Below, in pieces: positions 22,275 to 41,557 of a stretch of 64,000 bases of DNA (within the stretch, counting starts at the first letter, position 1; each line of letters opens with the position of its first letter). The DNA is from Hyphomicrobiales bacterium. GTDB taxonomy: Bacteria > Pseudomonadota > Alphaproteobacteria > Rhizobiales > Rhizobiaceae. The notes under the pieces are model-generated. The model was not told the DNA's origin. It did not search any database and worked only from the letters and a program-made list of their open reading frames with translations. The position numbers and the translations under genes were made by a program. The stretch spans positions 124,001-188,000 of the forward strand of contig UCNG01000006.1 in assembly GCA_900473915.1 (NCBI GenBank), given 5' to 3'.

Positions 22275-23615
22275 ATGCGCAAGACCCAAACCGGCGTATC
22301 GACCGTCCTTCTCGACAAGGCCGCCGAATGGCTGACGCGATCATCGATGGCGGGAGAGACCTTGCAAACCATCCTTCTGGGGTTTTGCGAGCGCCTCGCC
22401 GCCGCTGGCCTGCCGGTCGCGCGGGCGCATATGACATTCTCGATGTTGCATCCCCTTTATGATGCCGTCGGTTTTACATGGCATCGTACACAAGGCCTGA
22501 CCATTGAGGGGTACAGGCACAGGCAAGGCGAAAATTCCGAACGTTTTCGCGCAAGTCCGTACTACTATCTGCTTTCCAACAAGCTCGACCATCTGCGTCG
22601 TCGCTTCACACCGGATTCCGTCGATGAATTTCCGGTCTTTACAGAGCTGAAACAGCAGGGCATGACCGATTATCTGGCATTCATCCAGCCATTCGGCGCT
22701 CATTCTATGCAGGGCATGATGGGATCGTGGGCAACGGACAGCCGTTCCGGCTTCGATGACGACATGATTGGCGCTCTTTTGAAACTGCAAAGTCATCTGG
22801 CGGTTGCGGCGAAAATCGCTGTGCTCAGCAAACTGACGGACAGCATGCTGACCACCTATCTGGGCGGCGATGCTGGCCGGCGCGTTCTCAACGGCCAGAT
22901 CAAGCGTGGCGATGGCGAAACCATACGAGCAGCACTTGTCATGGGCGATATGCGCCAATCCACCGCGCTTGCGGAGAAAGAGGGGCGGCAGGTCTATATC
23001 GACACGCTCAATCAGTTCTTCGATGCTCTGGCGGCTCCGTTCAACCGCAATGGCGGCGAGATTCTCAGTTTCATCGGCGACGGCTTTCTGGCCGTTTATC
23101 CGTGTGGCCGCCACCGTGAACCTTCGGTTGTTGCCTGTCAGGCGGCGCTGTCGGCACTGGCTCAGGCGCAAGCCAATGTGGCCAGTCTGAACCGGGAGCG
23201 CCGAAAGAACGGCAAGTCTGCCATTCGTTACGGTGTCGGGCTGCATGTGGGCAATGTGATGTTCGGAAATGTCGGCCTGCGAGACCGGTTGACCTTCTCG
23301 GCCTTCGGTTCCGCCGTCAATGAGGCGCAGCGCCTGCAAGCCTTGACGAAGCGATTTTCGTCGGAAATTATCGCCAGCGGAAATTTCGTGAATTATAGCG
23401 GCGGGGACTGGGTAAAGCTTGGGGACGAAAAGTTGCGCGGTGTGGGGCAGAAAGTGACGGTCTATCGTCCGAACTCGCTGACATGTTGTAATGCGGACGA
23501 ACTGGCGGACGGCTTCAACGCAGGCGGGTTGTCCGAAGCGGAACAGATCATGCTGCTCTATCGCGACGCGGATTCAAAGGTCTCCCAAAACGCGGGGGAG
23601 AAAGCCACAAAATGA
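22275..23615 (+). CDS. class III nucleotide cyclase domain protein (cytosolic)
   Basis: A 446-residue soluble protein. Residues 1-200 form an N-terminal sensory region without recognised motifs or membrane helices, and residues 215-400 a class III cyclase catalytic domain. Metal ligands are present (Asp225 in VMGDMRQST and Asp269 in SFIGDGFLAVYP), as are the transition-state Asn349 and Arg353 (AVNEAQRL). The two base-recognition positions are not the usual Lys and Asp: they read Ser265 and Ser346. Product specificity is therefore uncertain. The TGA overlaps the ATG of a polysaccharide lyase gene by 4 bases. It opens a plus-strand run of 12 genes that ends at 39553. Confidence 0.85.
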   Translation: MRKTQTGVSTVLLDKAAEWLTRSSMAGETLQTILLGFCERLAAAGLPVARAHMTFSMLHPLYDAVGFTWHRTQGLTIEGYRHRQGENSERFRASPYYYLLSNKLDHLRRRFTPDSVDEFPVFTELKQQGMTDYLAFIQPFGAHSMQGMMGSWATDSRSGFDDDMIGALLKLQSHLAVAAKIAVLSKLTDSMLTTYLGGDAGRRVLNGQIKRGDGETIRAALVMGDMRQSTALAEKEGRQVYIDTLNQFFDALAAPFNRNGGEILSFIGDGFLAVYPCGRHREPSVVACQAALSALAQAQANVASLNRERRKNGKSAIRYGVGLHVGNVMFGNVGLRDRLTFSAFGSAVNEAQRLQALTKRFSSEIIASGNFVNYSGGDWVKLGDEKLRGVGQKVTVYRPNSLTCCNADELADGFNAGGLSEAEQIMLLYRDADSKVSQNAGEKATK

Positions 23616-24562
23616 AGCGTGTCGTCCTTTCGCTGGCTGCGCTCCTGTTCATCTCCATTCCGGCGGCGGCGGTAGCAATGGAGTCCTGGAATACACCTCG
23701 CGGCGATGATTTCGAGGGCACCGATTTTTCTCCGTCAGGCGGTCTTTATTATCGTCGCAATTTCGAGCAAAGCGCAGGCACTGTCGAGTTTCAGTCAGAC
23801 GTCACCTTCAAGGGCAACAAGGCGCTGAAACTGAGCGTCAAACCCCTTTGCCCTCAAACCAAGAAAAATTGCAGCGAACGCGCGGAAATATGGGAGAAGA
23901 CCGATCAACGCGTGCCTTACGATCAGGGTATCTGGTACGGATTTGCCGTCCGGTTCGCCGACCCCATTCCCAGTGGCGACCACCGCTATCTGATAGCGCA
24001 GTGGAAACGTGAGATCGTACCGGGCGCGGAGGGTGATTTCAGCCCGTTTCTGGCGCTTCGGCTGAACAACGGCAAGCTTTTCGCGACGGTCGAGACCAAT
24101 TATATCACGTTCGCCGAAGTAAACGCCAAACCTTCCAAGCCTGAAGGCACGCCGGTCTGGTTTCGCCCGGATGTCAACCAGATGCGTGCTCTGGTCGCCA
24201 GTCAGGAGGGCTGGACCACGCAGGACGATCCGCGTTTCGATAGCAGGACGAGCGCGATGACCGTCATCGATCGCGGCAATAAACTACCGTCGCCGCAGTC
24301 CGGCTGGATCGACTTTGCGATCTTTACGAAACCCGGTCCTGACGGGTCCGGGCACATAGAGATATTTGCCAACAACAAATGGGTTGTCACGGTGAAGGGC
24401 CGCATCGGTCACAATGATCCGGGACTGGGCGCCAACCAGTATTTCAAGTTCGGGCCTTACCGGGCTGCCGACAAGACGGACTGGACGCTTTACTACGATC
24501 ATTTTCGTCGTTCCTCCCGCTGCGAGGACGTGATGGAGGCAAAATTCTGCCCGGTTTTTTGA
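23612..24562 (+). CDS. secreted polysaccharide lyase (heparin-lyase-I-like family)
   Basis: A 316-residue exported protein. A signal peptide spans residues 1-23 (ending AAVAM). The mature part has the jelly-roll style of the Polysacc_lyase family (PF14099): DFEGTDFSPSGGLYYRRNFE near the start, ERAEIWEK, then WYGFAVRFADPIPSGDHRYL (about residues 110-129), QWKRE, and the closing KFGPYRAADKTDWTLYYDHF region. It would cleave an acidic polysaccharide by beta-elimination in the periplasm or outside. Its start overlaps the cyclase stop (ATGA at 23612-23615), so it is translationally coupled to a signalling enzyme. That suggests glycan trimming or turnover under the same control as synthesis. Confidence 0.85.
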   Translation: MKRVVLSLAALLFISIPAAAVAMESWNTPRGDDFEGTDFSPSGGLYYRRNFEQSAGTVEFQSDVTFKGNKALKLSVKPLCPQTKKNCSERAEIWEKTDQRVPYDQGIWYGFAVRFADPIPSGDHRYLIAQWKREIVPGAEGDFSPFLALRLNNGKLFATVETNYITFAEVNAKPSKPEGTPVWFRPDVNQMRALVASQEGWTTQDDPRFDSRTSAMTVIDRGNKLPSPQSGWIDFAIFTKPGPDGSGHIEIFANNKWVVTVKGRIGHNDPGLGANQYFKFGPYRAADKTDWTLYYDHFRRSSRCEDVMEAKFCPVF

Positions 24563-24663
24563 TCGGGTCGCAGGGGACGGTGGACTGCTCTGGACACGTC
24601 GCCGACGCTGCGCTAGGCTCAATTCGTGGCCGCGAAAGACGCTTTGGGGATCGGTAATTTCGC

Positions 24664-26544
24664 ATGAAGTCGAGTACGGATCTGTTACGCGTCGAGGGTC
24701 TGGATATTTCCTTTTCCACGCTGGGCAACAAGTGGAGCGTCGTCAACGATGCCAATCTGCGCATTCTGCCCGGCAAGGTGACAGCGCTCGTTGGCGAATC
24801 CGGCTCCGGTAAATCCGTTATCAGCCAGTCGATCATGGGAATTCTGCCTCGCAACGGCCAGGCCGAAGGGAAGATCCTGTTCACCGATCCGGTGAATGGC
24901 GAGACGACGGATATTCTCAAGCTGGTGAATGACGGGCCTGAAATTCGCGCCCTGCGCGGCAGCCGTATCGCCAAGATATTCCAGGAGCCGATGACGTCGC
25001 TGTCACCGCTCCATACGGTTGGCAACCAGATCAGCGAAGTGCTGACGATCCATGCCGAGATGACGAAGGCCGAGCGGCGCGCTCGCACGGAGGAAATGCT
25101 GGGGCTGGTTGGCTTCTCCAACCCGTCGCGGACGTTCGACATGTATCCCTTCGAGCTTTCCGGCGGGATGCGCCAGCGCGCCATGATCGCCATGGCGTTG
25201 ATCTGCCGCCCGGCGCTTCTGATCGCCGATGAGCCGACGACGGCGCTGGACGTGACGATTCAGGCGCAGATTCTCGAATTGCTTCGCGATTTGCAGCATA
25301 AGCTCAACATGGCGATGCTGTTGATCACACATGATCTTGGCGTGGTGGCCAATCTGGCCAATGAAGTGGTGGTCATCTATCACGGACGAATTCTGGAAGC
25401 TGGGCCGGTGGAGGAAATTTTCCGCAATCCGCAGCATCCCTATCTGAAAGGTCTGATGGCTGCTGTTCCGCATTTCAGCATGCGCCCCGGCGAGCGCCTG
25501 AAGGCCCTGCGCGAAGTTCCGGTTCAGGCCGAAACGCTATGGAAGAAGAAGCCGCCTAAGGGCGACGCGCCGGAAATCTTGCTGTCCGTGCGCAATCTCA
25601 CCAAGGAATACACCATTCGCAAGGCGGGCCTGTTCGGCGATGACAAGGCAGCTTCGGTGCGCGCCGTCGATGGTGTCAGTTTCGATATAAAGCGCGGCGA
25701 ATGTCTGGGCCTCGTCGGCGAAAGCGGCTCGGGAAAAACGACAGTCAGCAAAATTTTGATGCGGGCCGTCACGCCCGATCAGGGTTCGGTTACCTTCGAT
25801 GATGGCGACGGACCGGTGGATGTGCTTGCCGCTGAGGGCGCGCAGCTGATGGATCTGCGCACAAAAATCCAGATGATATTTCAGGATCCGGTCTCGTCGC
25901 TTTCGCCGCGCATGACTGTCGGCAGCATCCTGAGCGAGCCGCTTGAAATCCACAAGCGCGGCGACAAAGCCTATTGTCAGCAGAAAGTGCGGGCGCTGAT
26001 ACAGGCGATCGGCCTCGATGAGCGCTATCTCAGCCGCTATCCGCACAGCTTTTCCGGCGGTCAGCGCCAGCGGATCGGCATTGCGCGCGCGCTGGCGCTT
26101 GGACCGCAGCTTGTGGTCTGCGACGAACCTGTTTCGGCGCTCGACGTTTCGGTGCAGGCCCAGATTCTCAATCTTCTGAAGGATCTTCAGAAGGAACTCG
26201 GCCTGACCTATCTTTTCATCTCGCACAATCTGGCGGTGGTCGATTACATGGCCGACCGGATCGCCGTCATGTGCGGCGGACGGATTGTCGAACTGGCGCC
26301 AAGCGAAATCATTCTGCGCAGGCCGGTTCATCCCTATACGCAGGCCCTGCTTGCCGCCATACCTTTCCCGGACCTCGACAGGCCGCTGGATTTCGATACC
26401 CTGCGTGGCAGCGGGGCGTCGGATCGGCGTGGCTGGGGGCCGCATTTTTCCGGGGAGACGGGCGATCTGGCGTCGGTCGATCTTGGCAACGGCCATCTGG
26501 TTCTGGCGAGCAGCTCAGCGACGATCGGGGAGTTGAGAAATTGA
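24664..26544 (+). CDS. peptide/nickel-type ABC transporter, fused double ATP-binding protein
   Basis: A 626-residue protein with two complete ABC ATPase modules in one chain (DppD-DppF style, like YejF). Module 1 has GESGSGKSV, LSGGMRQRAMIAMAL and LLIADEPTTALD; module 2 has GESGSGKTT, FSGGQRQRIGIARAL and LVVCDEPVSALD. Each is followed by the HPY loop (NPQHPYLKGL and RPVHPYTQAL) typical of oligopeptide importers. It heads a set with binding protein (26541), permease (28480) and permease (29475), all overlapping or 1 base apart. The set sits inside a glycan and cyclase cluster, so oligosaccharide or murein-peptide uptake should be considered as well as peptides. Confidence 0.92.
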   Translation: MKSSTDLLRVEGLDISFSTLGNKWSVVNDANLRILPGKVTALVGESGSGKSVISQSIMGILPRNGQAEGKILFTDPVNGETTDILKLVNDGPEIRALRGSRIAKIFQEPMTSLSPLHTVGNQISEVLTIHAEMTKAERRARTEEMLGLVGFSNPSRTFDMYPFELSGGMRQRAMIAMALICRPALLIADEPTTALDVTIQAQILELLRDLQHKLNMAMLLITHDLGVVANLANEVVVIYHGRILEAGPVEEIFRNPQHPYLKGLMAAVPHFSMRPGERLKALREVPVQAETLWKKKPPKGDAPEILLSVRNLTKEYTIRKAGLFGDDKAASVRAVDGVSFDIKRGECLGLVGESGSGKTTVSKILMRAVTPDQGSVTFDDGDGPVDVLAAEGAQLMDLRTKIQMIFQDPVSSLSPRMTVGSILSEPLEIHKRGDKAYCQQKVRALIQAIGLDERYLSRYPHSFSGGQRQRIGIARALALGPQLVVCDEPVSALDVSVQAQILNLLKDLQKELGLTYLFISHNLAVVDYMADRIAVMCGGRIVELAPSEIILRRPVHPYTQALLAAIPFPDLDRPLDFDTLRGSGASDRRGWGPHFSGETGDLASVDLGNGHLVLASSSATIGELRN

Positions 26545-28478
26545 TCACCCGCAGAACATTGCTGGGCGGCGTAGCCGCCTCTCTTCTCCCGCTTCCAGCT
26601 CTTGCCGACTGGGACCTTGAGCCGGATTTTTTTGACGCGCATCTGCTCGCCCGCAGCCTGCCGCCGATTGGCGAACGGATTCCCGCGCAGCCGCGTGTCG
26701 TTCGCATGAAAGACATGGGGCGCCAGCCGGGCCGTTATGGCGGAGAGCTGCGCACGATCATCGGCAGCCAGAAAGATATCCGCTACATGACCATCAACGG
26801 TTATGCGCGTCTGGTGGGCTATAATGAGCGGCTTGAATTGCAGGCCGACATTCTGGAATCCTGGGAGGCGCAGGACGACCGGATTTTCACCTTTCATCTG
26901 CGCGCAGGGCATCGATGGTCGGATGGCCAACCGTTTACAGCCCTGGATTTTGCCTATTGGTGGAATGATGTCATTCTCAACCCGGATCTGACGCCGGATG
27001 GCGGTGCGCTCGAACTGCGCATCGATGGCAAGCTGCCGCAATTTGAGCTGATTGATGAGCGGACTGTGCGTTATAGCTGGCAATCGCCGAACCCGGATTT
27101 TTTACCCAGTCTGGCGGCCACACAGCCCATAGTCCTTGCCGGGCCGTTTCATTATCTGCGCCAGTTCCATCCGAAATATCAGGATCCGTTCCGCCTCTCG
27201 TCGCTCATGAATCTGTATCGCGTCAAGAAATGGACCGAGCTTCACACGAAGGTTTCACGCCAGTATCGACCGGAAAATCCTGAACTGCCGGTTCTCGATC
27301 CATGGCGCAACATGACAGCACCACCAGCCGAACAATTCGTGTTCGAGCGCAATCCCTATTTCCATCGCATTGATGAGAACGGGCGGCAATTGCCCTATAT
27401 CGACCGGGTTATCCTCAATGTCAGCTCATCCTCCATCATCCCGGCCAAGGCCGGTGCCGGAGAAAGTGATCTTCAGGCAACGAATATCGATTTTACGGAC
27501 TATGCCTTCCTGAAGGATGCCGAAAAACGCTATCCCGTGAAAGTCCATTTATGGAAGCTGATACGCGGATCACGTCTCGCGATCCTGCCCAATCTCAACT
27601 GCGCGGATGATGTGTGGCGCGGTCTTTTCAGGGACGTCCGCGTCAGGCGGGCTCTTTCTCTTGGCATTGACCGGCATGAGATCAATATGGCGGTTTTTTA
27701 TGGACTGGGCACGCCCAGCGCCGACACCTTGCTGCCAGAAAGCCCGCTCTATAAGCCTGAATATGCCAATGCGTGGATTCAACACGATCCCGATCAGGCC
27801 AATGCGTTGCTCGATGAAGCCGGTCTGCAAAAGCGCGATGCGAACGGCATCCGCCTGTTGCCGGACGGGCGGCTCGCGGAGATCACGATTGAATCGGCAG
27901 GTGAAAGCACGCTGGATACGGACGTGCTGGAACTGGTCACGGATCATTGGCGCAAGATCGGCATAGCGCTGTTCACCCGCACCAGCCAGCGTGATATTTT
28001 CCGGTCCCGCGCCATGGGCGGGCGGATCATGATGTCCATATGGTTCGGGCTTGAGAACGCCGTTGCCACCGCAGATATGAATCCTGCCCAACTGGCGCCA
28101 AGCTCCGACGATCAGCTGCAATGGCCGCTCTGGGGCATGTATCAGCTGTCGCTCGGCGCAAAGGGCAAGGCACCTGATCTGCCCGAAGCGGTCGAGCTTT
28201 GTACGCTACAGAAGCAATGGCGCTCCTCCGCGCATATGAGCGAGCGCTCCGAAATCTGGCACAAAATGCTTTCGATCTTCACCGATCAGGTGTTCTCGAT
28301 CGGTCTGGTCAATGGCACGCCGCAGCCGATCCTGCATACATCCTATCTGCGCAATGTCCCGGAAAAAGGATTATGGGGCTTCAATCCGACTTCGTTTCTG
28401 GGCGTCTATATGCCGGATACGTTCTGGTTGGCCGACACGCCCGAGAGCCCGAAGCAAAAACTGGCGGGAGAGGGCTGA
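26541..28478 (+). CDS. ABC transporter substrate-binding protein, family 5
   Basis: A 645-residue periplasmic binding protein of the oligopeptide/YejA type. The start is a TTG at 26541 overlapping the ATPase stop (TTGA), giving the leader ITRRTLLGGVAASLLPLPAL, with a twin-arginine-like pair and a cut near ALA. The body has FTFHLRAGHRWSDGQPFTAL (about residues 115-134) and the late family pattern FRDVRVRRALSLGIDRHEIN. The frame is open further upstream, but only inside the ATPase gene. It would deliver a large ligand to the two permeases. The ligand cannot be named from the sequence; relatives bind peptides, murein fragments or sugars. Confidence 0.88.
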   Translation: MITRRTLLGGVAASLLPLPALADWDLEPDFFDAHLLARSLPPIGERIPAQPRVVRMKDMGRQPGRYGGELRTIIGSQKDIRYMTINGYARLVGYNERLELQADILESWEAQDDRIFTFHLRAGHRWSDGQPFTALDFAYWWNDVILNPDLTPDGGALELRIDGKLPQFELIDERTVRYSWQSPNPDFLPSLAATQPIVLAGPFHYLRQFHPKYQDPFRLSSLMNLYRVKKWTELHTKVSRQYRPENPELPVLDPWRNMTAPPAEQFVFERNPYFHRIDENGRQLPYIDRVILNVSSSSIIPAKAGAGESDLQATNIDFTDYAFLKDAEKRYPVKVHLWKLIRGSRLAILPNLNCADDVWRGLFRDVRVRRALSLGIDRHEINMAVFYGLGTPSADTLLPESPLYKPEYANAWIQHDPDQANALLDEAGLQKRDANGIRLLPDGRLAEITIESAGESTLDTDVLELVTDHWRKIGIALFTRTSQRDIFRSRAMGGRIMMSIWFGLENAVATADMNPAQLAPSSDDQLQWPLWGMYQLSLGAKGKAPDLPEAVELCTLQKQWRSSAHMSERSEIWHKMLSIFTDQVFSIGLVNGTPQPILHTSYLRNVPEKGLWGFNPTSFLGVYMPDTFWLADTPESPKQKLAGEG

Positions 28479-28479
28479 G

Positions 28480-29478
28480 ATGCTGCGCTATATTCTCTGG
28501 CGCATCGCCGCCATGGTCCCGACCTTGCTGATTATCTCGGCGCTTATCTTCACGATCATTGAGCTGCCGCCGGGAAATTTCTTCGAAAGCCAGATTGCCG
28601 AGCTTCAGGCGCAGGGCGAAACGGTCAATCTTCAGGAAATCGAGGCGATGCGCCGCCAGTACGGTTTCGACAAGCCACCGGTCGTGCGCTATTTTTACTG
28701 GCTGGGCGGAATGCTCCAGGGAGACTTCGGCTATTCGTTCGAATATCAGCTGCCGGTCAGCGAGGTGGTCGGCGACCGGCTGTGGCTGACGATCCTCGTC
28801 TCATTCTGTACCATCGTCCTGACCTGGCTGATTGCCTTTCCCATCGGCATGTATTCGGCGACGCATCAGTATAGCTGGGGCGATTACGGGTTTTCACTGT
28901 TCGGGCTGCTCGGCATCGCCATTCCGAACTTCATGCTGGCGCTGATCCTGATGTATTTCGCCAATATCTGGTTCGGGACGTCCATCGGTCACCTGATGGA
29001 TCAGAAATATATTGCCGAACCCATGAGCTGGGCGAAGGCGAAATCCATTCTGGAACATCTGTGGATTCCGGTGATCATCGTCGGAACGGCTGGAACCGCT
29101 GGCATGATCCGACGGCTGCGCGCCAATCTTCTGGACGAGTTGCAGAAGCAATATGTCATGACGGCGCGGGCCAAGGGCCTGCATCCGTTCCGCGCACTGG
29201 TGAAATATCCGCTGCGCATGGCGCTCAATTTCTTTGTGGCCGACATCGGCTCCATATTGCCGACGATCATATCGGGCGCCGAAATCACGGCAATCGTGCT
29301 GTCGCTGGAAACCACGGGGCCGATGCTGATCAAGGCGCTGCAAAGCCAGGACATGTATCTGGCCGGGTCTTTCCTGATGTTCCTTGCGTTTCTGACGGTT
29401 ATCGGAATGCTCATATCCGACATCGCCCTGGCGATCCTGGATCCACGCATCCGGCTGCAAGGGGGGCATAGAAAATGA
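28480..29478 (+). CDS. peptide-type ABC transporter permease (DppB-like)
   Basis: A 332-residue inner-membrane permease. The start at 28480 (MLRYILWRIAAMVPTLLIIS) is the family N-terminal helix, 1 base after the binding-protein stop. The coupling loop near residues 218-240 (MTARAKGLHPFRAL) contacts the ATPase. Six hydrophobic segments are visible. The stop overlaps the next permease (ATGA at 29475-29478). It forms one half of the channel of the importer encoded by 24664-30650. Confidence 0.9.
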   Translation: MLRYILWRIAAMVPTLLIISALIFTIIELPPGNFFESQIAELQAQGETVNLQEIEAMRRQYGFDKPPVVRYFYWLGGMLQGDFGYSFEYQLPVSEVVGDRLWLTILVSFCTIVLTWLIAFPIGMYSATHQYSWGDYGFSLFGLLGIAIPNFMLALILMYFANIWFGTSIGHLMDQKYIAEPMSWAKAKSILEHLWIPVIIVGTAGTAGMIRRLRANLLDELQKQYVMTARAKGLHPFRALVKYPLRMALNFFVADIGSILPTIISGAEITAIVLSLETTGPMLIKALQSQDMYLAGSFLMFLAFLTVIGMLISDIALAILDPRIRLQGGHRK

Positions 29479-30650
29479 GCACCATGCTTCCGCCGCCGGG
29501 CGCGCCGCTTCCGCATTTCGTGTCAGACGCGCCGTTCGATCCATATTCCGTCGAGAAGATGACGGATGCGCAGGCGAAAATCCATCTCGCGTCCAACCGC
29601 CAGTTGATGTGGTGGAAGTTCAGGCGTCACAAGCTTGCGCTTGTATCCGGCATTTTCCTGATCCTGCTCTATGGCGCCATCGTCATCGCGGAATTTCTCG
29701 CGCCGTATAATCTGCATACGCGCAACGTCGATTTCATCCATGCCCCTCCGCAAAGGGTGCATCTGTTTCACGAAGGAAAATTCGTCGGGCCATTCGTTTA
29801 TGGTCGCCAGATGACCCTCAATATCGATACGCTGCGGCGCGTCTACACTGAAAACAGAGCGGATGTGCAGCGGCTGCGTTTCTTCTGCCGGGGCGACAAT
29901 TATCGGTTCTGGGGGCTGTTCAGCAGCAATTTTCATCTGGTCTGTCCGGCACCGGATGGGCAGATGTTTCTTTTTGGCACTGATCGCCTTGGCCGTGACG
30001 TGCTGTCCCGTATCATTTATGGCGCGCGGATTTCGCTGACCATCGGCCTTTTGGGCGTCACTATCAGCTTCGTGCTCGGCATTATCATCGGCGGCATTGC
30101 GGGTTATCGCGGCGGCTGGTTCGATCTGATCGTCCAGCGGATCATCGAAGTCTTGCAGGCCTTGCCGAGCCTGCCATTGTGGATGGCGCTTTCAGCGGTG
30201 ATGCCGATTTCATGGAGCCCGATCCTGATCTATTTCGGCATTACCACCATTCTGGGCATGCTGGACTGGACCGGACTTGCGCGCGCCGTTCGCTCGAAAA
30301 TCCTTGCGCTGCGCGAGGAGGACTACGTTCTGGCTGCCCAACTGATGGGGGCAAGCAGCCCGCGCATCATCGGTCGGCATCTCGTGCCCGGCTTCATGTC
30401 GCATCTGATTGCGGCGGCCACCATATCGATCCCCGGAATGATTCTTGGGGAAACAGCGTTGAGTTTTCTAGGACTTGGGCTTAGACCTCCTATAACGAGC
30501 TGGGGAATCCTTTTAACCGAGGCCCGTAACGTCAGTGTCATCGCGTTCTATCCTTGGCTGCTTCTGCCCATGGTTCCCGTCATTCTAGTCATTCTCGCGT
30601 TCAATTTTTTGGGAGATGGCTTGCGCGATGCAGCTGATCCTTACAGATAA
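29475..30650 (+). CDS. peptide-type ABC transporter permease (DppC-like)
   Basis: A 391-residue permease, the partner of the gene at 28480. It has a longer N-terminal cytoplasmic part and first helix (residues 45-75) with an extended periplasmic loop to about residue 160, as in YejE-type permeases. Core motifs are FGTDRLGRDVLSRIIYGARI (about residues 166-185), the coupling loop VLAAQLMGASSPRIIGRHLV, and GETALSFLGLGLRPP close to the end. It completes the importer set. An 88- to 115-base gap separates it from the first glycosyltransferase. Confidence 0.9.
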   Translation: MSTMLPPPGAPLPHFVSDAPFDPYSVEKMTDAQAKIHLASNRQLMWWKFRRHKLALVSGIFLILLYGAIVIAEFLAPYNLHTRNVDFIHAPPQRVHLFHEGKFVGPFVYGRQMTLNIDTLRRVYTENRADVQRLRFFCRGDNYRFWGLFSSNFHLVCPAPDGQMFLFGTDRLGRDVLSRIIYGARISLTIGLLGVTISFVLGIIIGGIAGYRGGWFDLIVQRIIEVLQALPSLPLWMALSAVMPISWSPILIYFGITTILGMLDWTGLARAVRSKILALREEDYVLAAQLMGASSPRIIGRHLVPGFMSHLIAAATISIPGMILGETALSFLGLGLRPPITSWGILLTEARNVSVIAFYPWLLLPMVPVILVILAFNFLGDGLRDAADPYR

Positions 30651-30765
30651 ACGCAATCATGAGGCCACACCGCGTGCATTTTCCCAGCATCGCCGTCTTT
30701 ACCGGTTCTGAATATTTCACCTTGAATGAGCTGCAAGCATGTCCTGCACCGGAAAGGTTTTGAAC

Positions 30766-31986: not shown

Positions 31987-31996
31987 TCCGGCATCC

Positions 31997-33241
31997 ATGC
32001 CTGTTCGTCGAAAATTGCTTGTGGTGTTGAAGGGCTATCCGCGCCTTTCGGAAACTTTTATCGCGCAAGAACTTCTGGGGCTGGAGCGCGCCGGCTTTGA
32101 CCTGACGCTCATTTCGATGCGCCGTCCGACCGACAAGAAACGGCACCCGATCCATGACGAAATCAAGGCCCGCGTCGTCTATCTGCCGGAATATCTTTAT
32201 GAAGAGCCGTTGCGGGTCTGGCGTGGATTTCTGGCGGCTTGGCGTCGCCCCGGCTTCCGTCCGCTTTTGCGCCAGTTCTGGAAGGATTTGCGGCGGGATT
32301 TAACGCCCAACCGCGTGCGGCGGCTGGGACAGGCGATGGTGCTTGCCCATGAATGGCCGGACCGGGGCGAATGGCTGCATGCGCATTTCATCCACACACC
32401 GGCCTCGGTGACGGCCTATGCAAGCCTTCTGACCGGCGTGCCATGGACATGCTCCGCCCATGCCAAGGATATCTGGACTTCGCCGGACTGGGAGCTGGCG
32501 GAAAAGCTCGGGCGCGCCCGCTGGAGCGTCACCTGCACGCGTACCGGCTATGAGCATATGCGCGGCCTCACCCCGCGCAAGGAAGCGGTTCATCTGAGCT
32601 ATCACGGGCTTGATCTCGACCGCTTTGGCCTCTTCGAGATGCCGCGCTCGTCGCGAGACGGAACCGACGCCCGCGATCCGCTGCGTATCCTCAGCGTCGG
32701 GCGGGCGGTGCCCAAGAAGGGCTATGACGTGCTTTTGCATGCGCTGGCATTGTTGCCGCCCGATCTCCACTGGCGCTTTACACATATTGGCGGCGGCGAT
32801 GAACTGGCTCGTTTGAAGCCACTGGCTGAAACCCTTGGCCTCGCCGACCGGATCGAATGGAAAGGCGCGCTGGCGCAGGAAGAAGTGCTGGAGCATTACC
32901 GTCAATCGGACATCTTCGCGCTTGCATGCCGCATCACGGCCGATGGCGACCGCGACGGGCTGCCGAATGTGATTGTCGAAGCCTCAAGCCAGAATCTTGT
33001 CTGTGTCTCGACCAACATATCCGGTGTCCCGGAACTGTTGAGCGATGGTGAAAACGGTCTTTTGGTGCCTTCCGAAGACGCGCAAGCTTTTGCTGCCGCG
33101 CTGGCCCGGCTTGCGGCAGACCCACAATTGCGCCATCGGCTGGGGGCGGCGGCAGAGCATCGTGTTCGCCACCATTTCGATCACCACGCCAGCATTCGCC
33201 AGCTGACGGATCTGTTCGAGCGGGAATGGATGAAAGCATGA
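31997..33241 (+). CDS. glycosyltransferase family 4
   Basis: A 414-residue GT-B retaining glycosyltransferase. The start region VVLKGYPRLSETFIAQELLG (about residues 9-28) is the usual GT4 opening, with H in HAHFIHTPASV and the donor site GRAVPKKGYDVLLHAL (about residues 235-250). NVIVEASSQNLVCVSTNISG matches the EX7E area in the C-terminal half. I give the ATG at 31997; a TTG at 31973 is in frame, overlaps the previous gene and has GGAG 7 bases upstream, so it may be the real start. It is coupled to the next gene, whose start overlaps its stop. Confidence 0.88.
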   Translation: MPVRRKLLVVLKGYPRLSETFIAQELLGLERAGFDLTLISMRRPTDKKRHPIHDEIKARVVYLPEYLYEEPLRVWRGFLAAWRRPGFRPLLRQFWKDLRRDLTPNRVRRLGQAMVLAHEWPDRGEWLHAHFIHTPASVTAYASLLTGVPWTCSAHAKDIWTSPDWELAEKLGRARWSVTCTRTGYEHMRGLTPRKEAVHLSYHGLDLDRFGLFEMPRSSRDGTDARDPLRILSVGRAVPKKGYDVLLHALALLPPDLHWRFTHIGGGDELARLKPLAETLGLADRIEWKGALAQEEVLEHYRQSDIFALACRITADGDRDGLPNVIVEASSQNLVCVSTNISGVPELLSDGENGLLVPSEDAQAFAAALARLAADPQLRHRLGAAAEHRVRHHFDHHASIRQLTDLFEREWMKA

Positions 33242-34383
33242 GCGGCAGCCCTGAAACGCCCGGCCCGAAAGTCCTGTTTTATGTGCAGCACCTTCTGGGG
33301 ATCGGGCACATTGCGCGGGCAAGCCGCATTGCGTCGGCAATGAAGGATGACGGTTTCGACGTGACCGTGGTGACAGGTGGCCTTCCCGTTCCGGGGTTTC
33401 CGGCGGATGGTATTCCGGCAATTGCGCTGCCTCCGGTCGTTGCCAGCAATGCCGGTTTTTCCGGTCTTGCCGACGAAAATGGCCAGCCTGCGGACGAAGC
33501 TTTTCTGGCGCGGCGGCGGGATCAGCTGCTGGAGATATTTCGCCGGTTGAAGCCGGATATGGTCATTATCGAGGCCTTTCCGTTCGGGCGGCGGCAGATG
33601 CGGTTTGAGCTTGTTCCGCTGATCGAGGCCATCGAAAATTCCACGCCGCGCCCGAAGCTCATCACGTCCGTGCGCGACATTGTTCAGCAGCGGACAAAAC
33701 CGGGCCGCAACGAGGAAACCGTTGCTCTCGTCCAGGCCCATTTCGACCGTGTTCTGGTGCATGGCGACGAGAATTTCGTGCCTTTGTCCTATAGTTTTCC
33801 GCTGGCGGAAGAGATTGCCGACCGTATCGTCCATACGGGTCTGGTTGCGGCTCCGCCCGCGCCTGCCAGCGCAGAAAAATTCGATATTGTCGTCTCCGCA
33901 GGCGGCGGAGCGGTGGGAGCGGCATTGGTGAATGCCGCGATTGGCGCTGCCCGACAGCACACGCAGCGCAGCTGGTGTGTCATCGCTGGCCCCAACCTGC
34001 CGGAAGCCGATTTCCAGAAGCTCCTGCAAGATAGCCCGTCCAATGTGCAGGTCGTGCGCTTCCGCAAGGATTTTCCATCGCTATTGCAGGGAGCCGAGGT
34101 TTCGGTATCGCAGGCCGGATATAACACGGTCTGCGATCTGTTGCAGGCGAGATGCCGGGCCATTCTGGTGCCGTTCACGCAAGGCGGGGAAACGGAGCAG
34201 GCGGTAAGGGCTGAGCGCCTTGAGGAAATGGGGTTTGCCATTGCCATTTCCGAAGATCGTCTTGATGTTCAGGTTTTGAGCGACGCCATTGCTGAGGCGC
34301 TTGAAAATCCGCCGCCGCCCGCCGCCGCGCTGGATCTCGACGGAGCCCGAAAAACGGCCCGCTACCTTCGTTCTCTCCGATAA
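33238..34383 (+). CDS. glycosyltransferase, GT28/MurG-like (second)
   Basis: A 381-residue GT-B glycosyltransferase related in layout to the one at 30766. It opens with VLFYVQHLLGIGHIARASRI (the GIGHIARA loop), and has VSAGGGAVGAALVNAAIG near residues 216-233 and the donor-site SQAGYNTVCDLLQARCRAIL with VPFTQGGETEQAVRAERL. I use the ATG at 33238, which overlaps the previous stop (ATGA); the ATG at 33226 is an alternative. Three glycosyltransferases in a row, two of one type, suggest stepwise assembly of one glycan repeat or glycolipid. Confidence 0.85.
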   Translation: MSGSPETPGPKVLFYVQHLLGIGHIARASRIASAMKDDGFDVTVVTGGLPVPGFPADGIPAIALPPVVASNAGFSGLADENGQPADEAFLARRRDQLLEIFRRLKPDMVIIEAFPFGRRQMRFELVPLIEAIENSTPRPKLITSVRDIVQQRTKPGRNEETVALVQAHFDRVLVHGDENFVPLSYSFPLAEEIADRIVHTGLVAAPPAPASAEKFDIVVSAGGGAVGAALVNAAIGAARQHTQRSWCVIAGPNLPEADFQKLLQDSPSNVQVVRFRKDFPSLLQGAEVSVSQAGYNTVCDLLQARCRAILVPFTQGGETEQAVRAERLEEMGFAIAISEDRLDVQVLSDAIAEALENPPPPAAALDLDGARKTARYLRSLR

Positions 34384-34475
34384 GATATACGCGAATGCGG
34401 ATCCCCCGTCGGGCAGACATGCTATAAGATGACTGCCAATATGCGCGGCCTACCAGAAACCGGTTCAAAGCCTGA

Positions 34476-36167
34476 ATGACAGCACCGACAAAAGCCCGTT
34501 TTCCATCCGAGCGTCTGTTGCGAAAAGCTCGGCTGGCATCCGGCCTTGTCATGGTGACGTTCCTCGCGCTGCACATGAGCAATCACGCGCTGAATCTGAT
34601 TTCGCTGAATGCGGCGGAAAAAGGCAGGCTGCTCTTTCTGCTTGTTTGGCGCAATCCGGTTGGAACAACGCTGCTCTACGGCGCTATTTTCATCCATCTG
34701 AGCCTTGTGCTGCGCTCGCTCTACAAGCGGCGCTCGCTGAAATTGCCATTCGGCGAAACCATGCAGATTCTCTTGGGCCTGCTGATCCCGCTTCTGATCA
34801 TGGAGCATGTGATCGGCACCCGCATCCGGCATGAGCTGGTGGGCTATAGCGATACCTATCGAAGTGTCATTCATACGCTGTGGGTGGCGTCGCCTTTCAA
34901 CGGTATGAAGCAGAGCGTCGCTCTTCTCGTCGCGTGGACGCACGGATGTATCGGCATCTATTTCTGGCTTCGCCCGCGCCGCTGGTTTCAACGCACCGCG
35001 CCGCTTTTGTTGAGCATGGCCATTCTGTTGCCCGTCCTTGCTTTGCTAGGATTTGCAAATTCCGGACGGTTGCTTGCCAGTATTCCGGTGGAAGCGGCCT
35101 CCTTGTCCGGCGGCGAGACCACGCGGCTTTCGCGCGCCATTGACGCGGCAAGCCAGTTTCAAATCAGGCTGGCGCTTTACGGCCTGTTCGGCGCGGCTTT
35201 GGCGCTGCTGTTTATGTGCCGTGCCATGCGCAGCCGGCGGGAATGGGCAAACCAGATCAGGGTCACTTATCCCAGCGGCGAAATCGTAGCTGTTCCACGC
35301 GGCTTCAGCATTCTTGAAGCCAGCCGGTCTGCCGGGATTCCGCATTACTCGATATGCGGCGGCAAAGGCCGTTGCTCCACCTGCCGCGTCAGGGTGGTCA
35401 AGGGTGGCGACGAATTGCCGGAACCCGGTTCCATCGAACAGGAAACGCTGCATCGTATCGGTGCAGACGGCGATGTTCGCCTCGGTTGCCAGTTGCGTCC
35501 GGAAAAAGATGTCAGCGTGGTGCCCCTGCTCATGCCGGACCCCGACATCGCTTCGGAGGGCGCGGCGCAATTGACCGTCGCCGGGCAGGAGCGGGACATT
35601 ACGGTTCTGTTTTGCGACTTGCGCAGCTTCACACAGCTGGCAGAAACCAAGCTGCCTTACGATGTCGTTTTCCTTCTGAACCGATATTTTGCAATTGTCG
35701 GGCAGGCGGTTCAGCAGGTTGATGGCAGGCTGGATAAATTCATCGGGGATGGCGCCATGGCGCTGTTCGGGTTGCGCGGATCAAGCGAGGATGGTTGCCG
35801 GAATGCCCTTGCCGCCGCAGCGCAGATCGTGCGGGATATAGAGCGCCTCAACGAGGAAATGGCGGATGAACTTTCGCTGCCATTGCGGGTCGCCATCGGC
35901 ATCCATACCGGCCCTGCCATTGTCGGAACCATGGGCTACGACAAGGTGAAGGGGCTGACGGCGGTGGGCGATACCGTCAACGTTGCCAGCAGGCTGGAAA
36001 GCGTCGCCAAGGAACAACAGGCGGCAATCGTCCTGTCGGAACCCGTCGCAACCCGCGCCGGCATGCCGGTCGAAGATCTGGAGGCGGAAGATATTGCAAT
36101 TCGCGGGCGATCAAATCCGCTTCGGGTCTATGTGGTTTCAGCCGAACAAGCAGCCTTGCTGGCGTGA
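34476..36167 (+). CDS. membrane adenylate cyclase with histidine-rich (cytochrome b-like) anchor and 2Fe-2S domain
   Basis: A 563-residue fusion. Residues 1-250 hold about six membrane helices with histidines at 33, 37, 74, 111 and 156, placed as in diheme cytochrome b anchors of succinate dehydrogenase. Residues 260-355 form a plant-type ferredoxin with Cys294, Cys300, Cys303 and Cys338. Residues 372-555 are a class III cyclase with both metal aspartates (381 and 425), Lys421, Asp499, Asn502 and Arg506, a full adenylate-cyclase set. This layout matches CyaC of Sinorhizobium meliloti, described as a quinone/redox-responsive adenylate cyclase. It would convert respiratory redox state into cAMP. 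It lies between glycosyltransferases and an ABC-like protein, with a cyclic-nucleotide-binding protein two genes on. Confidence 0.88.
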   Translation: MTAPTKARFPSERLLRKARLASGLVMVTFLALHMSNHALNLISLNAAEKGRLLFLLVWRNPVGTTLLYGAIFIHLSLVLRSLYKRRSLKLPFGETMQILLGLLIPLLIMEHVIGTRIRHELVGYSDTYRSVIHTLWVASPFNGMKQSVALLVAWTHGCIGIYFWLRPRRWFQRTAPLLLSMAILLPVLALLGFANSGRLLASIPVEAASLSGGETTRLSRAIDAASQFQIRLALYGLFGAALALLFMCRAMRSRREWANQIRVTYPSGEIVAVPRGFSILEASRSAGIPHYSICGGKGRCSTCRVRVVKGGDELPEPGSIEQETLHRIGADGDVRLGCQLRPEKDVSVVPLLMPDPDIASEGAAQLTVAGQERDITVLFCDLRSFTQLAETKLPYDVVFLLNRYFAIVGQAVQQVDGRLDKFIGDGAMALFGLRGSSEDGCRNALAAAAQIVRDIERLNEEMADELSLPLRVAIGIHTGPAIVGTMGYDKVKGLTAVGDTVNVASRLESVAKEQQAAIVLSEPVATRAGMPVEDLEAEDIAIRGRSNPLRVYVVSAEQAALLA

Positions 36168-36324
36168 CGCCAGCCGATGTTTAACCCGATGAAAATCGCG
36201 TGCTTGTTTGCCGTATACTGTGCCAAGCGAACGATTTTACCGGTATAAACAAAAAGATAGAGTAGTTTTCATTAATCGCATATAGGAAGAAAAAGCATCC
36301 TGTTGATCTGACGTCTGGTGCCCC

Positions 36325-39042
36325 ATGGAAAAAAGCCTAGCCCGCTATATCTGGTCCTCGACACGTCTTCAGCAGGCATGGATTCTTTTGGTCGTCGCAC
36401 TATCGATGATCCCCTATTTCCTGTCGTTCGACCTGCCCAAGCAGATTATCAACGGGCCCATTCAGGGCAGCGGGTTCGAGACGCCGGGTGCGACGCAGAC
36501 CTTCATGCGCATCGCCTATAACATCCCCTATTTCGGAGAGGTGGTGTTCTTTGGCGGCTTGCAGCTCAACCGGATCGAGATGCTGGTGGGCCTCAGCCTG
36601 GTGTTCCTGCTTCTCGTCGTCGTCAATGGCCTCTTCAAGCTCTATATCAACACCTATAAAGGTCGCCTTGGCGAGCGCATGCTGCGACGCATTCGCTTCG
36701 AGCTGATCGACCGGGTTCTGCGTTTTCCGCCCCATCATTTCAAGCGGGTCCGCTCGGCGGAAATCGCGACGATGATCAAGGACGAAGTGGAGCCGATGGG
36801 CGGTTTCACCGGCGATGCGTTCGTGCAGCCCGCTCTTCTGGGCGGGCAGGCGCTGACGGCGCTGATCTTCATCGTGATGCAGAATTTCTGGCTCGGTATG
36901 ATCGCAGCCGCCATCGTCGCGGTGCAGGGCATCATCATCCCCAGAATGCGCAAGCGCCTGCTGGAGCTGGGACGCCAGCGCCAGCTTACGGCCCGTCAGC
37001 TTTCGGGGCGGGTGGGTGAGATTGTCGACGGCATCAGCACCATTCACAGCAATGATACGTCCAATTTCGAGCGCGCCGATATCGCCGAGCGGCTGGGGCG
37101 CATCTTCAAGATCCGCTACGATCTTTACCAGTGGAAGTTTCTGGTCAAATTCATCAATAACTTCCTGGCGCAGGTCACGCCGTTCCTTTTCTACATGCTC
37201 GGCGGCATCTTTGCCCTGCAAGGCCGTCTCGATATCGGTCAGCTTGTGGCAGTGATCAATGCCTACAAGGACCTTCCGGGACCCTTGAAGGAACTGATCG
37301 ACTGGGACCAGTCGCGGCAGGACGTGCAGGTTAAATATGCGCAGGTCGTCGAGCAGTTCAGCGTCGATAATCTGATCGATCCGAAAATCCATGCGGTCGA
37401 GTACCAGACGACCCCGCCGCTGAACCATTCAATCGTTGCATCCAATGTGACGGTTCTGGATGATAGTGGCGGACGCCTGCTCGAAAATCTCAATATCGAA
37501 ATCCGCCCGACCGAGACGGTTGCCGTCATCGGACCGGCTGGCAGCGGCACCGAGGTTTTCGCCGAGCTTCTGGCGCGGCTTGTCTGGCCCGATTCAGGAC
37601 GGCTGACCATTGACGGGCACGATATTTTTGCCCTGCCGGAATCGGTCACGGGTCGCCGCATCGCCTATGCCTCGTCAGATGCCTATTTCTTCAGCGGGTC
37701 GCTGCGCGACAATCTGCTCTACGGCCTCAAGCACGCGCCATTGACCGAAGTCCAGTACGACGGGGCTGCGGCGATGGAGCGACACTGGCAGGTCCAAGAG
37801 GCGAAGAGAGCGAAGAATCCGGCCTTCGATCTGAATAGCGATTGGGTCGATTACGGGTCGATGGGCATATCGGACGCATCCGAACTCTACAAGGTCGTAC
37901 GCCCCGTGCTGGAGGCCGTGATGATCAAGCAGGACATCATCGATCTGGCGCTGCGCTCACAGGTCGATACGATTGCGCATCCGGCGCTGGTGGATCGTAT
38001 CGTGGAATTCCGGCAGGCCTTGCGCGACAGGCTTGAACAGGAAGAGCTTGCCGATCTTGTCGTTCCATTCGAGCCGGATATTTATAACCCGCAGGCAACT
38101 GTCGGCGAAAATATGCTTTTCGGCGTGCTCGACCGTTCGTCAATGACGATCCGGCAACTGGCGGCGCATCCTTTCTTCAAAAAGGTCATGAGCGAAAACG
38201 ATCTCCATGTGGATCTCTATCATATGGGCCGCGAAATTGCGGAGAACGCGATCGAGCTTTTCCGGGATCTGCCGCCCGACCACCCGTTCTTTCAGCAGCT
38301 GACATTCATGCGTCCGGAGGATATTCCAGACTACCAGCTGCTGCTGCAGAAATTGAAAGATGTCGAGGTGGGAGCCGTTTCACCGGAGGACTGGGGCAGC
38401 ATCGCTCGCCTGAGCTTCGCCTATATCGAACCGCGCCATCGCTTCGGCTTGCTGACCGATGCCCTGAAAGCCAAGATCGTTGCGGCAAGAAAACAGGTGG
38501 CGCAGGACATGCCGCCCGACCTGCAAGCCGTCATCGAGACCTATCATCCGGACAGGTTTATTTCGAGCGCTAGCCTGCTCGACAATCTGCTTTTCGGCAA
38601 GGTGAGCTACGGGCAGGCGGACGCCATGGGGCGCATCCGGGCGATCCTGATCGACCTTTTCGAGGATCTGGGCCAGTCCGAGGCAATCCTTTCGATAGGG
38701 CTGGATTTCGACGTCGGCTCAGGCGGAAAACGCCTGACTAGCGTCCAGCGCCAGAAGATCAACGTGGCGCGCGCCCTGCTCAAGCATGCGGATTACGTGA
38801 TCTTCAGCAGACCCTTACCGGCGCTGGACCAGCGGATACAAATTCAGATCGCGGAAAATATTATGCAAAATCTCCATAAAGAGGGACATACTCCCGCTAT
38901 AATATGGGCTTTGAGTAATTTTCCTCTCGCCAGTAATTTTGATCGCGTTATCGTATTCAAAGGCGGTCGTCTGGTTCAGGACGGCACCTACGAGGCGCTG
39001 CTCGCGGAGGGTGGCGTGTTCAAGGAGCTGGTGGCGCAATAG
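36325..39042 (+). CDS. ABC-exporter-like fusion protein with degenerate ATPase motifs
   Basis: A 905-residue protein. Residues 15-330 resemble an ABC exporter membrane domain. Residues 365-905 follow the ABC ATPase layout but with destroyed catalytic motifs. Walker A reads GPAGSGTE (403-410), so the lysine is replaced by Thr409. The signature reads KRLTSVQRQKINVARAL (802-818), not LSGGQ. Walker B reads VIFSRPLPALD, with Ser828 and Arg829 where Asp and Glu belong. The switch histidine is absent (WALSNFP). About 300 extra residues lie between Q-loop and signature, and the NLLYG motif occurs three times (463, 596 and 754). Binding without hydrolysis, or a hydrolysis-independent scaffold, is inferred. 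It precedes the cyclic-nucleotide-binding protein by 61 bases. Confidence 0.85.
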   Translation: MEKSLARYIWSSTRLQQAWILLVVALSMIPYFLSFDLPKQIINGPIQGSGFETPGATQTFMRIAYNIPYFGEVVFFGGLQLNRIEMLVGLSLVFLLLVVVNGLFKLYINTYKGRLGERMLRRIRFELIDRVLRFPPHHFKRVRSAEIATMIKDEVEPMGGFTGDAFVQPALLGGQALTALIFIVMQNFWLGMIAAAIVAVQGIIIPRMRKRLLELGRQRQLTARQLSGRVGEIVDGISTIHSNDTSNFERADIAERLGRIFKIRYDLYQWKFLVKFINNFLAQVTPFLFYMLGGIFALQGRLDIGQLVAVINAYKDLPGPLKELIDWDQSRQDVQVKYAQVVEQFSVDNLIDPKIHAVEYQTTPPLNHSIVASNVTVLDDSGGRLLENLNIEIRPTETVAVIGPAGSGTEVFAELLARLVWPDSGRLTIDGHDIFALPESVTGRRIAYASSDAYFFSGSLRDNLLYGLKHAPLTEVQYDGAAAMERHWQVQEAKRAKNPAFDLNSDWVDYGSMGISDASELYKVVRPVLEAVMIKQDIIDLALRSQVDTIAHPALVDRIVEFRQALRDRLEQEELADLVVPFEPDIYNPQATVGENMLFGVLDRSSMTIRQLAAHPFFKKVMSENDLHVDLYHMGREIAENAIELFRDLPPDHPFFQQLTFMRPEDIPDYQLLLQKLKDVEVGAVSPEDWGSIARLSFAYIEPRHRFGLLTDALKAKIVAARKQVAQDMPPDLQAVIETYHPDRFISSASLLDNLLFGKVSYGQADAMGRIRAILIDLFEDLGQSEAILSIGLDFDVGSGGKRLTSVQRQKINVARALLKHADYVIFSRPLPALDQRIQIQIAENIMQNLHKEGHTPAIIWALSNFPLASNFDRVIVFKGGRLVQDGTYEALLAEGGVFKELVAQ

Positions 39043-39103
39043 ACCTGTCCGGCGGTTGCCGTGGGATCGATCTGGAGAGCAGGGGGAAGGAAATGGTGAG
39101 TTC

Positions 39104-39553
39104 ATGCTTCTAAAAGACGAAGTGGAGATGTTGCGACGCATTCCGCTTTTTGCTGGTGTAGCGCCGGCGAAGCTGAAGCTTCTCGCCTTTACCTCCGACC
39201 GGGTCAGCTACAAGGCCAACCAGTCGCTGTTTCAACAGGGTGATGTGGCGGATGCAGCCTATGTCATTCTTTCGGGCAATGCCGATATTCTTGTCGACAC
39301 GCCGGACGGAGCGATCAAGATCGCGGAAGCGCAGCATGATTCAATCGTGGGCGAGATCGGCATTTTGTGCGACGTATCGCGCACCGCAACGGTGACGGCG
39401 TCCACAGCGCTTGAGGCCCTGCGCATCAACAAGGAAAACTTCCTGAAGCTGCTGGCCGATTATCCCGAAATGACGATCGAAATCATGCGGGTTCTGGCCA
39501 ACAGGCTAAGCCAGACCACGGCAGAACTGACGCAGGAGCGCAGTCGGCATTAG
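39104..39553 (+). CDS. cyclic nucleotide-binding domain protein
   Basis: A 149-residue protein consisting almost only of one CNB domain. It opens with EMLRRIPLFAGVAPAKLKLL and the first barrel strands, and has the phosphate-binding cassette GEIGILCDVSRTATV at residues 83-97, with the two key residues Glu84 and Arg93 in place, so cAMP or cGMP binding is likely. There is no DNA-binding helix-turn-helix, so it is not a Crp-type regulator; it would act through protein contacts. The ATG at 39104 has GGGGAAGGAAA upstream. It lies just after the degenerate ABC gene and ends in a hairpin. Its natural partner may be that ABC-like protein, with the two cyclases as the cAMP source. Confidence 0.87.
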   Translation: MLLKDEVEMLRRIPLFAGVAPAKLKLLAFTSDRVSYKANQSLFQQGDVADAAYVILSGNADILVDTPDGAIKIAEAQHDSIVGEIGILCDVSRTATVTASTALEALRINKENFLKLLADYPEMTIEIMRVLANRLSQTTAELTQERSRH

Positions 39554-41413: not shown

Positions 41414-41557
41414 GAAGGAGGAATTCCTGTTCGGGTGGGCAGTGGATAATAGATGTCATAAAGTTTAAAAAACAGATTGCTATCGCCTGCCAGTGGATTG
41501 AATGTGGCATTTGCACCCGGCCGAACGCAGGCGGGGCTATATTGAGTGGCGAGTACG

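Follow-up and report, generated by a model that had tools for sequence, protein, structure and literature searches.

Pairing of a degenerate ABC-exporter-fold protein with a cyclic nucleotide-binding protein in Alphaproteobacteria: a possible undescribed membrane target of cAMP-type signaling

What a run of twelve genes that combines two nucleotide cyclases, a cyclic nucleotide-binding (CNB) protein and a degenerate ATP-binding cassette (ABC) protein with glycosyltransferase, lyase and importer genes might do is the question raised by a locus of a Hyphomicrobiales bacterium (GenBank assembly GCA_900473915.1, contig UCNG01000006.1, positions 124,001 to 188,000; these 64,000 nucleotides are called the window). 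The cAMP effectors known from bacteria are mostly transcription factors. Computational comparison of the run with other genomes gave good sequence support to the conclusion that its core is not the whole twelve-gene operon but its last two plus-strand genes, which encode an ABC-exporter-fold protein of 905 amino acids with a degenerate nucleotide-binding domain (NBD) and an insertion of approximately 260 residues (pseudo-ABC; 36325..39042), and a stand-alone CNB protein of 149 amino acids (39104..39553). Such a module may be a membrane target of cAMP-type signaling that has not been described before; searches of the open-access literature returned no account of the pair.

The close-relative sample comprised the best 80 of at least 573 loci found with the 905-amino-acid ABC protein, with 10-kb flanks. 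Among the matches listed, the closest relative was Brucella daejeonensis, whose ABC protein is 90% identical, which makes the Ochrobactrum/Brucella group the probable origin of the window. The CNB gene lies 26 to 112 bases downstream of pseudo-ABC in all 80 best close loci. Distant genomes were reached with a profile of the insertion (residues 470 to 789, alignment A2, 21 close copies), which detected family members in 131 of the 385 alphaproteobacterial genomes sampled, about a third, and in 31 of 398 genomes sampled from the phylum. In the class tally, which leaves out Rhizobium johnstonii 3841 (G002) and covers 130 genomes, CNB was adjacent downstream in 109, was fused to the ABC C terminus in 10, and was not seen in 11. 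The flanks of the distant genomes were uneven in length, about 3 to 20 kb in all. Forty wide distant loci (L114 to L153; 30 unfused and 10 fused) cover 787 kb; six of the phylum-search genomes were fetched wide and fall outside the 130, and nine more are short loci (L154 to L162). The CNB profile had one match per locus in the 40 wide loci, located within the ABC gene, beside it, or one gene off (L121), which is far from chance. ABC-CNB fusions also occur in Azospirillum sp. B510 and Tritonibacter mobilis. Fusions are classical evidence that two proteins work together, and pseudo-ABC and CNB very probably form a physical complex. Two genomes (G003 and G004, those of loci L075 and L080) have, on a different contig, an additional family member that is more divergent.

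The transmembrane domain (TMD) and NBD fold of an ABC exporter are both present in pseudo-ABC (ABC_membrane and ABC_tran families), with ABC_tran matching only the first part of the NBD. The NBD motifs were aligned for 84 close copies, 39 distant copies (leaving out L124, in which the gene is split in two) and three control exporters, two of which are closely related to each other. No close copy retains the Walker A Lys or the Walker B Asp (Asn in 83 of 84), and the position of the Walker B catalytic Glu is occupied by Arg, and that of the signature Ser by Thr, in all 84. The second Gly of LSGGQ is gone in 83 of them, and in one close copy (L083) the Walker A loop is short by five residues. 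The distant copies are less extreme, with the Walker A Lys in 21 of 39, the Walker B Asp in 4, the catalytic Glu in 20, the signature Ser in 19, and the second Gly in 2. Pseudo-ABC therefore seems to be a conserved family and an apparent pseudo-ATPase, for which the initial description as a degenerate ABC protein was an understatement. The loss of the ATPase motifs across a conserved family also makes the glycan export that had been proposed, if by an ordinary ATP-driven exporter, doubtful.

The fold of the NBD is nevertheless retained in an AlphaFold2 model despite the loss of the motifs. The modeled NBD has block values of the predicted local distance difference test (pLDDT) mostly between 74 and 93, with low values at about residues 451 to 520 and 641 to 670, and covers the full 239 residues of the ComA NBD when the two are aligned. 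Conservation in pseudo-ABC is strongest in the membrane domain, whereas ordinary ABC proteins usually conserve the NBD more. The insertion contains two apparent extra copies of the unit that runs from the Q loop to the following helix. Profile comparison related copies 2 and 3 with a probability of 96.9, copies 1 and 3 with 90.8, and copies 1 and 2 with 89.4. Single-profile searches were weaker than profile comparison: in a repeat test, the copy 2 profile did not recover copy 1 from any sequence below a limit of 0.1, and a single shuffled sequence passed this limit. The Q-loop unit thus seems to be triplicated, as judged from these comparisons. Pseudo-ABC matches MsbA, BSEP/ABCB and NdvA, with NCBIfam matches below the cut-offs, and shares its TMD and NBD families with MsbA/NdvA-type (ABCB) exporters. 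Unlike them, it has degenerate Walker A, Walker B and signature motifs, an apparently triplicated Q-loop unit, approximately 260 extra residues, and a CNB partner.

Heterodimeric exporters with one degenerate site, namely TmrAB, TM287/288 and IrtAB, are among the best structural matches of pseudo-ABC. This resemblance fits a rather unlikely alternative in which pseudo-ABC is the degenerate half of an ATP-driven heterodimer whose active half is encoded elsewhere, with CNB regulating the pump. Exporter-type ABC genes do lie approximately 12 to 16 kb off in Rhizobium etli and Sinorhizobium sp. B11, and an ABC gene of exporter length (576 amino acids) is near the pair in L147, one of the 40 wide loci. 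However, the close copies are degenerate in Walker A, Walker B and the signature alike, and by the logic of composite sites an intact partner would still leave both sites incomplete. Judged against the three control exporters, the remaining 39 wide loci showed only importer-type or ATPase-only open reading frames (ORFs) besides the family, which indicates that no partner gene is conserved in the neighborhood.

The structural matches also include entries of SUR from the KATP channel. SUR and CFTR resemble pseudo-ABC in that an ABC-exporter fold serves as a switch that no longer drives ordinary transport, but both still use ATP, whereas pseudo-ABC has lost the motifs and acquired an attached CNB. 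Together with the loss of the ATPase motifs beside a strongly conserved membrane domain, the SUR matches are in keeping with the idea that the ABC fold is a receptor or scaffold, which would either respond to a glycan or lipid intermediate and relay this to the cyclases and CNB, or tether CNB to the membrane. We consider this idea unlikely; the CNB protein has no output domain to relay a signal, and the cyclases are not consistently adjacent.

In the CNB protein, PF00027 (cNMP_binding) is the sole family above the Pfam cut-off, with no second domain and no helix-turn-helix family by Pfam, as initially noted. NCBIfam CRP-like models matched below the cut-off and in the CNB part only, and the protein lacks the C-terminal helix-turn-helix that marks transcription factors of the CRP/FNR type. 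Its phosphate-binding cassette (GEIGILCDVSRTATV) contains Gly83, Glu84 and Arg93, which are invariant in an alignment of 15 sequences (A3), and 24 of the 30 separate distant copies and 6 of the 10 fused ones fit a strict cassette pattern. The protein is thus predicted to bind a cyclic nucleotide monophosphate (cNMP), having the phosphate-binding cassette that characterizes a cNMP receptor. Bacteriocin-type export systems likewise tie a CNB domain to an ABC-type exporter, but the model of that family, cyc_nuc_ocin (TIGR03896), matched the CNB protein with only 48.3 bits against a cut-off of 161. Unlike those systems, the pseudo-ABC family has lost the ATPase motifs, and its CNB is C-terminal or encoded downstream.

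Two class III cyclases in the run are candidate sources of the messenger. The product of cyc2 (34476..36167, plus strand) combines an N-terminal hydrophobic region with Fer2 and Guanylate_cyc domains. Over 13 homologs, His33, His37, His74, His111 and His156 in the hydrophobic region and Cys294, Cys300, Cys303 and Cys338 in the ferredoxin domain are conserved, and the adenylate cyclase residues are Asp381 (13 of 13), Asp425 (13 of 13), Lys421 (12 of 13), Thr495 (13 of 13), Asn502 (11 of 12) and Arg506 (12 of 12). With at least four membrane His residues (a putative diheme B), the 2Fe-2S Cys residues and the adenylate cyclase residues, cyc2 has the sequence features of a membrane adenylate cyclase of the CyaC type. 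The redox-type cyclase that had been counted into an undescribed set thus belongs to a known type. CyaC of Sinorhizobium meliloti likewise has conserved N-terminal His residues, a 2Fe-2S ferredoxin domain and a class III domain with adenylate cyclase-type residues. According to passages of one study, its heme-bearing anchor makes cyclase activity redox sensitive, and its cAMP synthesis responds to the quinone redox state (PMC10463352). The same passages have CyaC signaling via the regulators Clr and CycR (PMC10463352), whereas the run with cyc2 has the CNB protein without a helix-turn-helix instead. Operons for cytochrome o ubiquinol oxidase lie approximately 2 to 5 kb beyond CNB in R. etli (L002), Sinorhizobium sp. 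B11 (L003) and R. johnstonii (L167), which is suggestive beside redox-responsive cyclases.

The product of cyc1 (22275..23615, plus strand; PF00211) is probably soluble. Its metal residues Asp225 and Asp269 are kept in 19 of 19 homologs. The substrate pair is Ser265/Ser342, and the usual Lys is Ser in 16 of the 19.

A class III cyclase and a CNB receptor in one locus are also found in Pycsar defense systems, in which a pyrimidine cyclase is combined with a CNB effector. PADLOC PycC models match cyc1 (1.5e-15) and cyc2 (6e-25), a TIR-effector model matches the CNB protein (3.7e-15), and cyc1 lacks the residues usually assigned to adenine specificity. However, the PADLOC matches span only the shared cyclase and CNB domains, pseudo-ABC has no PADLOC match, the residues of cyc2 are of the CyaC and adenylate type, and the pair recurs with glycan genes. 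Unlike a Pycsar system, the run has no TIR effector, the CNB protein carries neither of the killing domains (TIR or TM) of a Pycsar effector, and the context is one of glycan genes. A Pycsar-like role is therefore very improbable.

A built-in cyclic nucleotide circuit, as initially inferred, does not seem to be a general property of the locus. Cyclases were seen in at least 17 of the 80 best close loci, in which the 10-kb flanks cut off cyc1 in many Rhizobium loci. In the distant genomes, with flank lengths varying, a cyclase match in the locus was found in just 9 of 136, and the three of these nine matches that were checked by Pfam are cyclases. The messenger may therefore come from elsewhere in the cell. 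Apparent cyc2 matches in L130 and L133 belong to one family and were not counted, that of L130 being a RACo-type ferredoxin protein by Pfam.

Three plus-strand glycosyltransferase genes precede cyc2 in the window, namely gtA (30739..31986), encoding a MurG/MJ1255-like GT28-type enzyme (PF04101; TIGR00661 below the cut-off), gtB (31997..33241), encoding a GT4-type enzyme (PF00534; EpsE-like model below the cut-off), and gtC (33226..34383), encoding a MurG-like GT28-type enzyme (PF04101). At least two of them lie beside the ABC-CNB pair in 69 of the 80 best close loci, and at least two in 74 of the 130 class genomes with their mixed flank lengths. Among the wide distant loci, at least two occur in 25 of the 30 unfused loci but in none of the 10 fused ones, and in distant genomes they often lie on the opposite strand, diverging from ABC-CNB. 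In Azospirillum, importer genes, gtA and gtB are present at the fused locus. Two families of approximately 270 and 173 amino acids, each in 18 wide loci, accompany the glycosyltransferase genes, and the scanned representative of each has no Pfam match; a histidine phosphatase family accompanies them in 13 of the 40 wide loci.

A UDP-glucose/GDP-mannose dehydrogenase gene (UGD; 20597..22006, minus strand; PF03721, PF00984 and PF03720) lies divergently upstream of the run and adjoins cyc1 in R. etli, R. johnstonii, S. meliloti and other loci. The polysaccharide lyase gene (23612..24562, plus strand; PF14099), whose product has a signal-peptide-like N terminus, is present in S. meliloti, Rhizobium daejeonense, two Mesorhizobium and four Ochrobactrum-group loci and is missing in the clusters of R. 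etli and R. johnstonii. The importer is encoded on the plus strand by oppDF (24664..26544; Opp/Dpp-type ATPase with two ABC_tran domains by Pfam), oppA (26541..28478; SBP_bac_5 solute-binding protein, PF00496, start codon provisional) and the permease genes oppB (28480..29478; PF00528 and PF19300, start picked from the translation) and oppC (29475..30650; PF00528 and PF12911). Copies of oppDF are 71 to 81% identical in rhizobial clusters and 50 to 58% identical in six of the 40 wide distant loci; the importer permeases were judged from oppC and annotation. S. meliloti USDA1106 has the order of the window minus cyc2 (UGD, cyc1, lyase, importer, three glycosyltransferases, ABC and CNB). In R. 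daejeonense, pseudo-ABC, CNB, cyc2 and the lyase are accompanied on the other strand by the three glycosyltransferases and the importer permeases. That the content is kept while the order changes is the strongest indication of a functional set.

The initial annotation had viewed the genes as one system with a CNB protein lacking a helix-turn-helix, and recurrence as a set, with a CNB protein that has no DNA-binding domain tied to it, is indeed seen across rhizobial and distant loci. The twelve-gene operon that it took for the system is only one local arrangement, since the glycosyltransferases are divergent in many distant genomes. In the comparison of gene order that it proposed, the ABC-CNB pair proved co-conserved (80 of 80 close loci; 119 of 130 class genomes when fusions are included), while cyc2 moves about and the lyase is optional. 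The picture of freely differing neighbors, which would have spoken against a system, thus does not apply to ABC-CNB and applies only in part to the glycosyltransferases, given their absence as a set from the 10 fused wide loci. The cyclases, lyase and importer that come and go among loci, and the fused loci without glycosyltransferases, would suit mere co-localization, with separate importer, glycan and signaling units as chance neighbors. Such a chance neighborhood is highly unlikely in view of the 119 class genomes in which the pair is adjacent or fused, and of R. daejeonense, which keeps pseudo-ABC, CNB, cyc2, the lyase, the glycosyltransferases and the permeases together although rearranged.

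The reading that we prefer, tentatively, is that of a cNMP-controlled, ATP-independent membrane switch acting on a surface glycan. Its core would be a two-protein membrane module, composed of a nonhydrolyzing ABC-exporter-fold protein and a bound CNB subunit. The cyclic nucleotide would be supplied by the redox-responsive cyc2, together with cyc1 or other cellular cyclases. Its binding to CNB would change the state of the pseudo-NBD dimer and, in turn, that of the TMD, so that the cyclic nucleotide would replace the switching role of ATP in normal ABC exporters. The likely target would be the glycan made by the neighboring glycosyltransferases and the UDP-sugar dehydrogenase, and the module would either gate its passage or control its assembly at the inner membrane. 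The lyase, where present, would trim the glycan outside the cell, and the Opp-type importer would recover the fragments. A cNMP probably controls the module. Whether the module acts on the glycan of the neighboring genes is evenly balanced, and ATP-free gating is put forward as a possibility that falls a little short of an even chance.

Several observations weigh against this reading. No CNB was seen in the fetched stretches of the 11 class genomes mentioned above, of which two were flagged as cut off and some others are short, and the Methylobacterium bullatum locus has the ABC gene without a CNB match. Six of the 30 separate copies and 4 of the 10 fused ones do not match the strict CNB pattern. 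The Walker A Lys retained in 21 of the distant copies makes ATP binding possible in those, and, even among the three control exporters, two carry Asp in place of the Walker B Glu. The membrane domain is poorly predicted by AlphaFold2, the whole model having a mean pLDDT of 70.9 and a predicted template modeling score of 0.54. The substrate residues of cyc1 are not the canonical Lys/Thr, and cyclases are rare at the distant loci. In the 10 fused loci, of about 20 kb or less, all three glycosyltransferases are lacking, which indicates that the glycan link is not universal. If the reading is true, a membrane-embedded effector would link the state of respiration directly to the cell envelope, and an ABC exporter would prove able to be rebuilt as a switch that is not an ATPase. 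More doubtfully, the family might represent a new class of cNMP effector that has given up ATP hydrolysis and in which a docked or fused CNB gates the TMD, cAMP or another cNMP directly opening or closing a path for glycan or lipid in the inner membrane of alphaproteobacteria, with coupling to the redox state of the respiratory chain through CyaC-type cyclases in some lineages.

Reports on rhizobia touch the locus and its neighbors. S. meliloti 1021 (L253, pSymB at approximately 827 to 845 kb) differs from USDA1106 by two single-base indels over 18.5 kb, one each in cyc1 and the ABC gene, whereas S. meliloti 2011 is identical to USDA1106 over the 17,001 bases compared (L163 and L254), with cyc1 and ABC open. 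The indels in 1021 could reflect either true variation between strains or errors of sequencing, and they may have hidden the locus from study. By position, the S. meliloti pseudo-ABC gene is probably SMb20813, which a passage of a 2024 paper names as an msbA homolog and which, as that passage describes it, speaks against a strong symbiotic role (PMC10945364). In Rhizobium leguminosarum 3841, pRL110056 is needed for root colonization according to a passage of PMC11103875, while attachment to roots at pH 6.5 and 7.0 requires pRL110043 according to one of PMC11406972; by gene counting, these would be the UDP-sugar dehydrogenase gene and a major facilitator superfamily (MFS) gene next to the cluster. 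The genes smb20804 and smb20805, close in number to the S. meliloti cluster, are linked to the KPS capsule and NCR247 sensitivity in a passage of a genome-wide sensitivity paper (PMC5539429). The MsbA2 operon of S. meliloti (SMb21188 to SMb21191), for which synthesis and export of an unknown polysaccharide has been proposed, also combines an ABC exporter with glycosyltransferases, but it is a separate pSymB locus at approximately 938 kb, and the passage describing it mentions no CNB gene (PMC3687685). MsbA2 as the S. meliloti pseudo-ABC gene was ruled out by this position. The tags SMb21190 to SMb21196, considered for the S. meliloti cluster, belong to other genes in the passages seen.

In the window, the twelve plus-strand genes are all open across 22275 to 39553. 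The spacings between neighbors from cyc1 to CNB, computed from coordinates with the starts of oppA, oppB and gtB inferred, are -4, 101, -4, 1, -4, 88, 10, -16, 92, 157 and 61 bases, with minus denoting overlap. An 18-pair hairpin with a perfect stem, resembling an intrinsic terminator (39550..39588, plus strand), overlaps the CNB stop codon and is followed by CTATTTATTT. The initial description of twelve close or overlapping genes on one strand ending in a perfect hairpin is thus confirmed, with spacings from -16 to 157, and Pfam matched the gene families and order that it gave. Among 16 terminator-like matches, this stem clearly stands out as the strongest, the runner-up having nine pairs; since 18.9 matches were expected in shuffles, the number is not enriched. 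Promoter-like matches were at the level of chance (9 observed and 7.4 expected) and so speak neither for nor against a single transcript.

A convergent gene for a calcineurin-like metallophosphoesterase (39647..41413, minus strand; PF00149) lies downstream of the run. It is optional, adjoins CNB in several Phyllobacterium loci and B. daejeonensis, and could possibly encode a cNMP phosphodiesterase; its matches to solved structures are weak only (best E value, 0.0062). It belongs to a block at 39647 to 44234, with a metallo-beta-lactamase-fold protein (41546 to 42388), a 254-amino-acid ORF without a Pfam match and a GT4 glycosyltransferase (43131 to 44234), which resembles an annotated block downstream of CNB in Phyllobacterium. 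Farther on, the window encodes a 621-amino-acid protein (50064 to 51929) with DUF3100 (PF11299) at residues 373 to 610 and a TackOD1-domain protein (53086 to 54327; Thaumarchaeal output domain 1, PF18551, E value of 1.9e-46), a name unusual for a proteobacterium.

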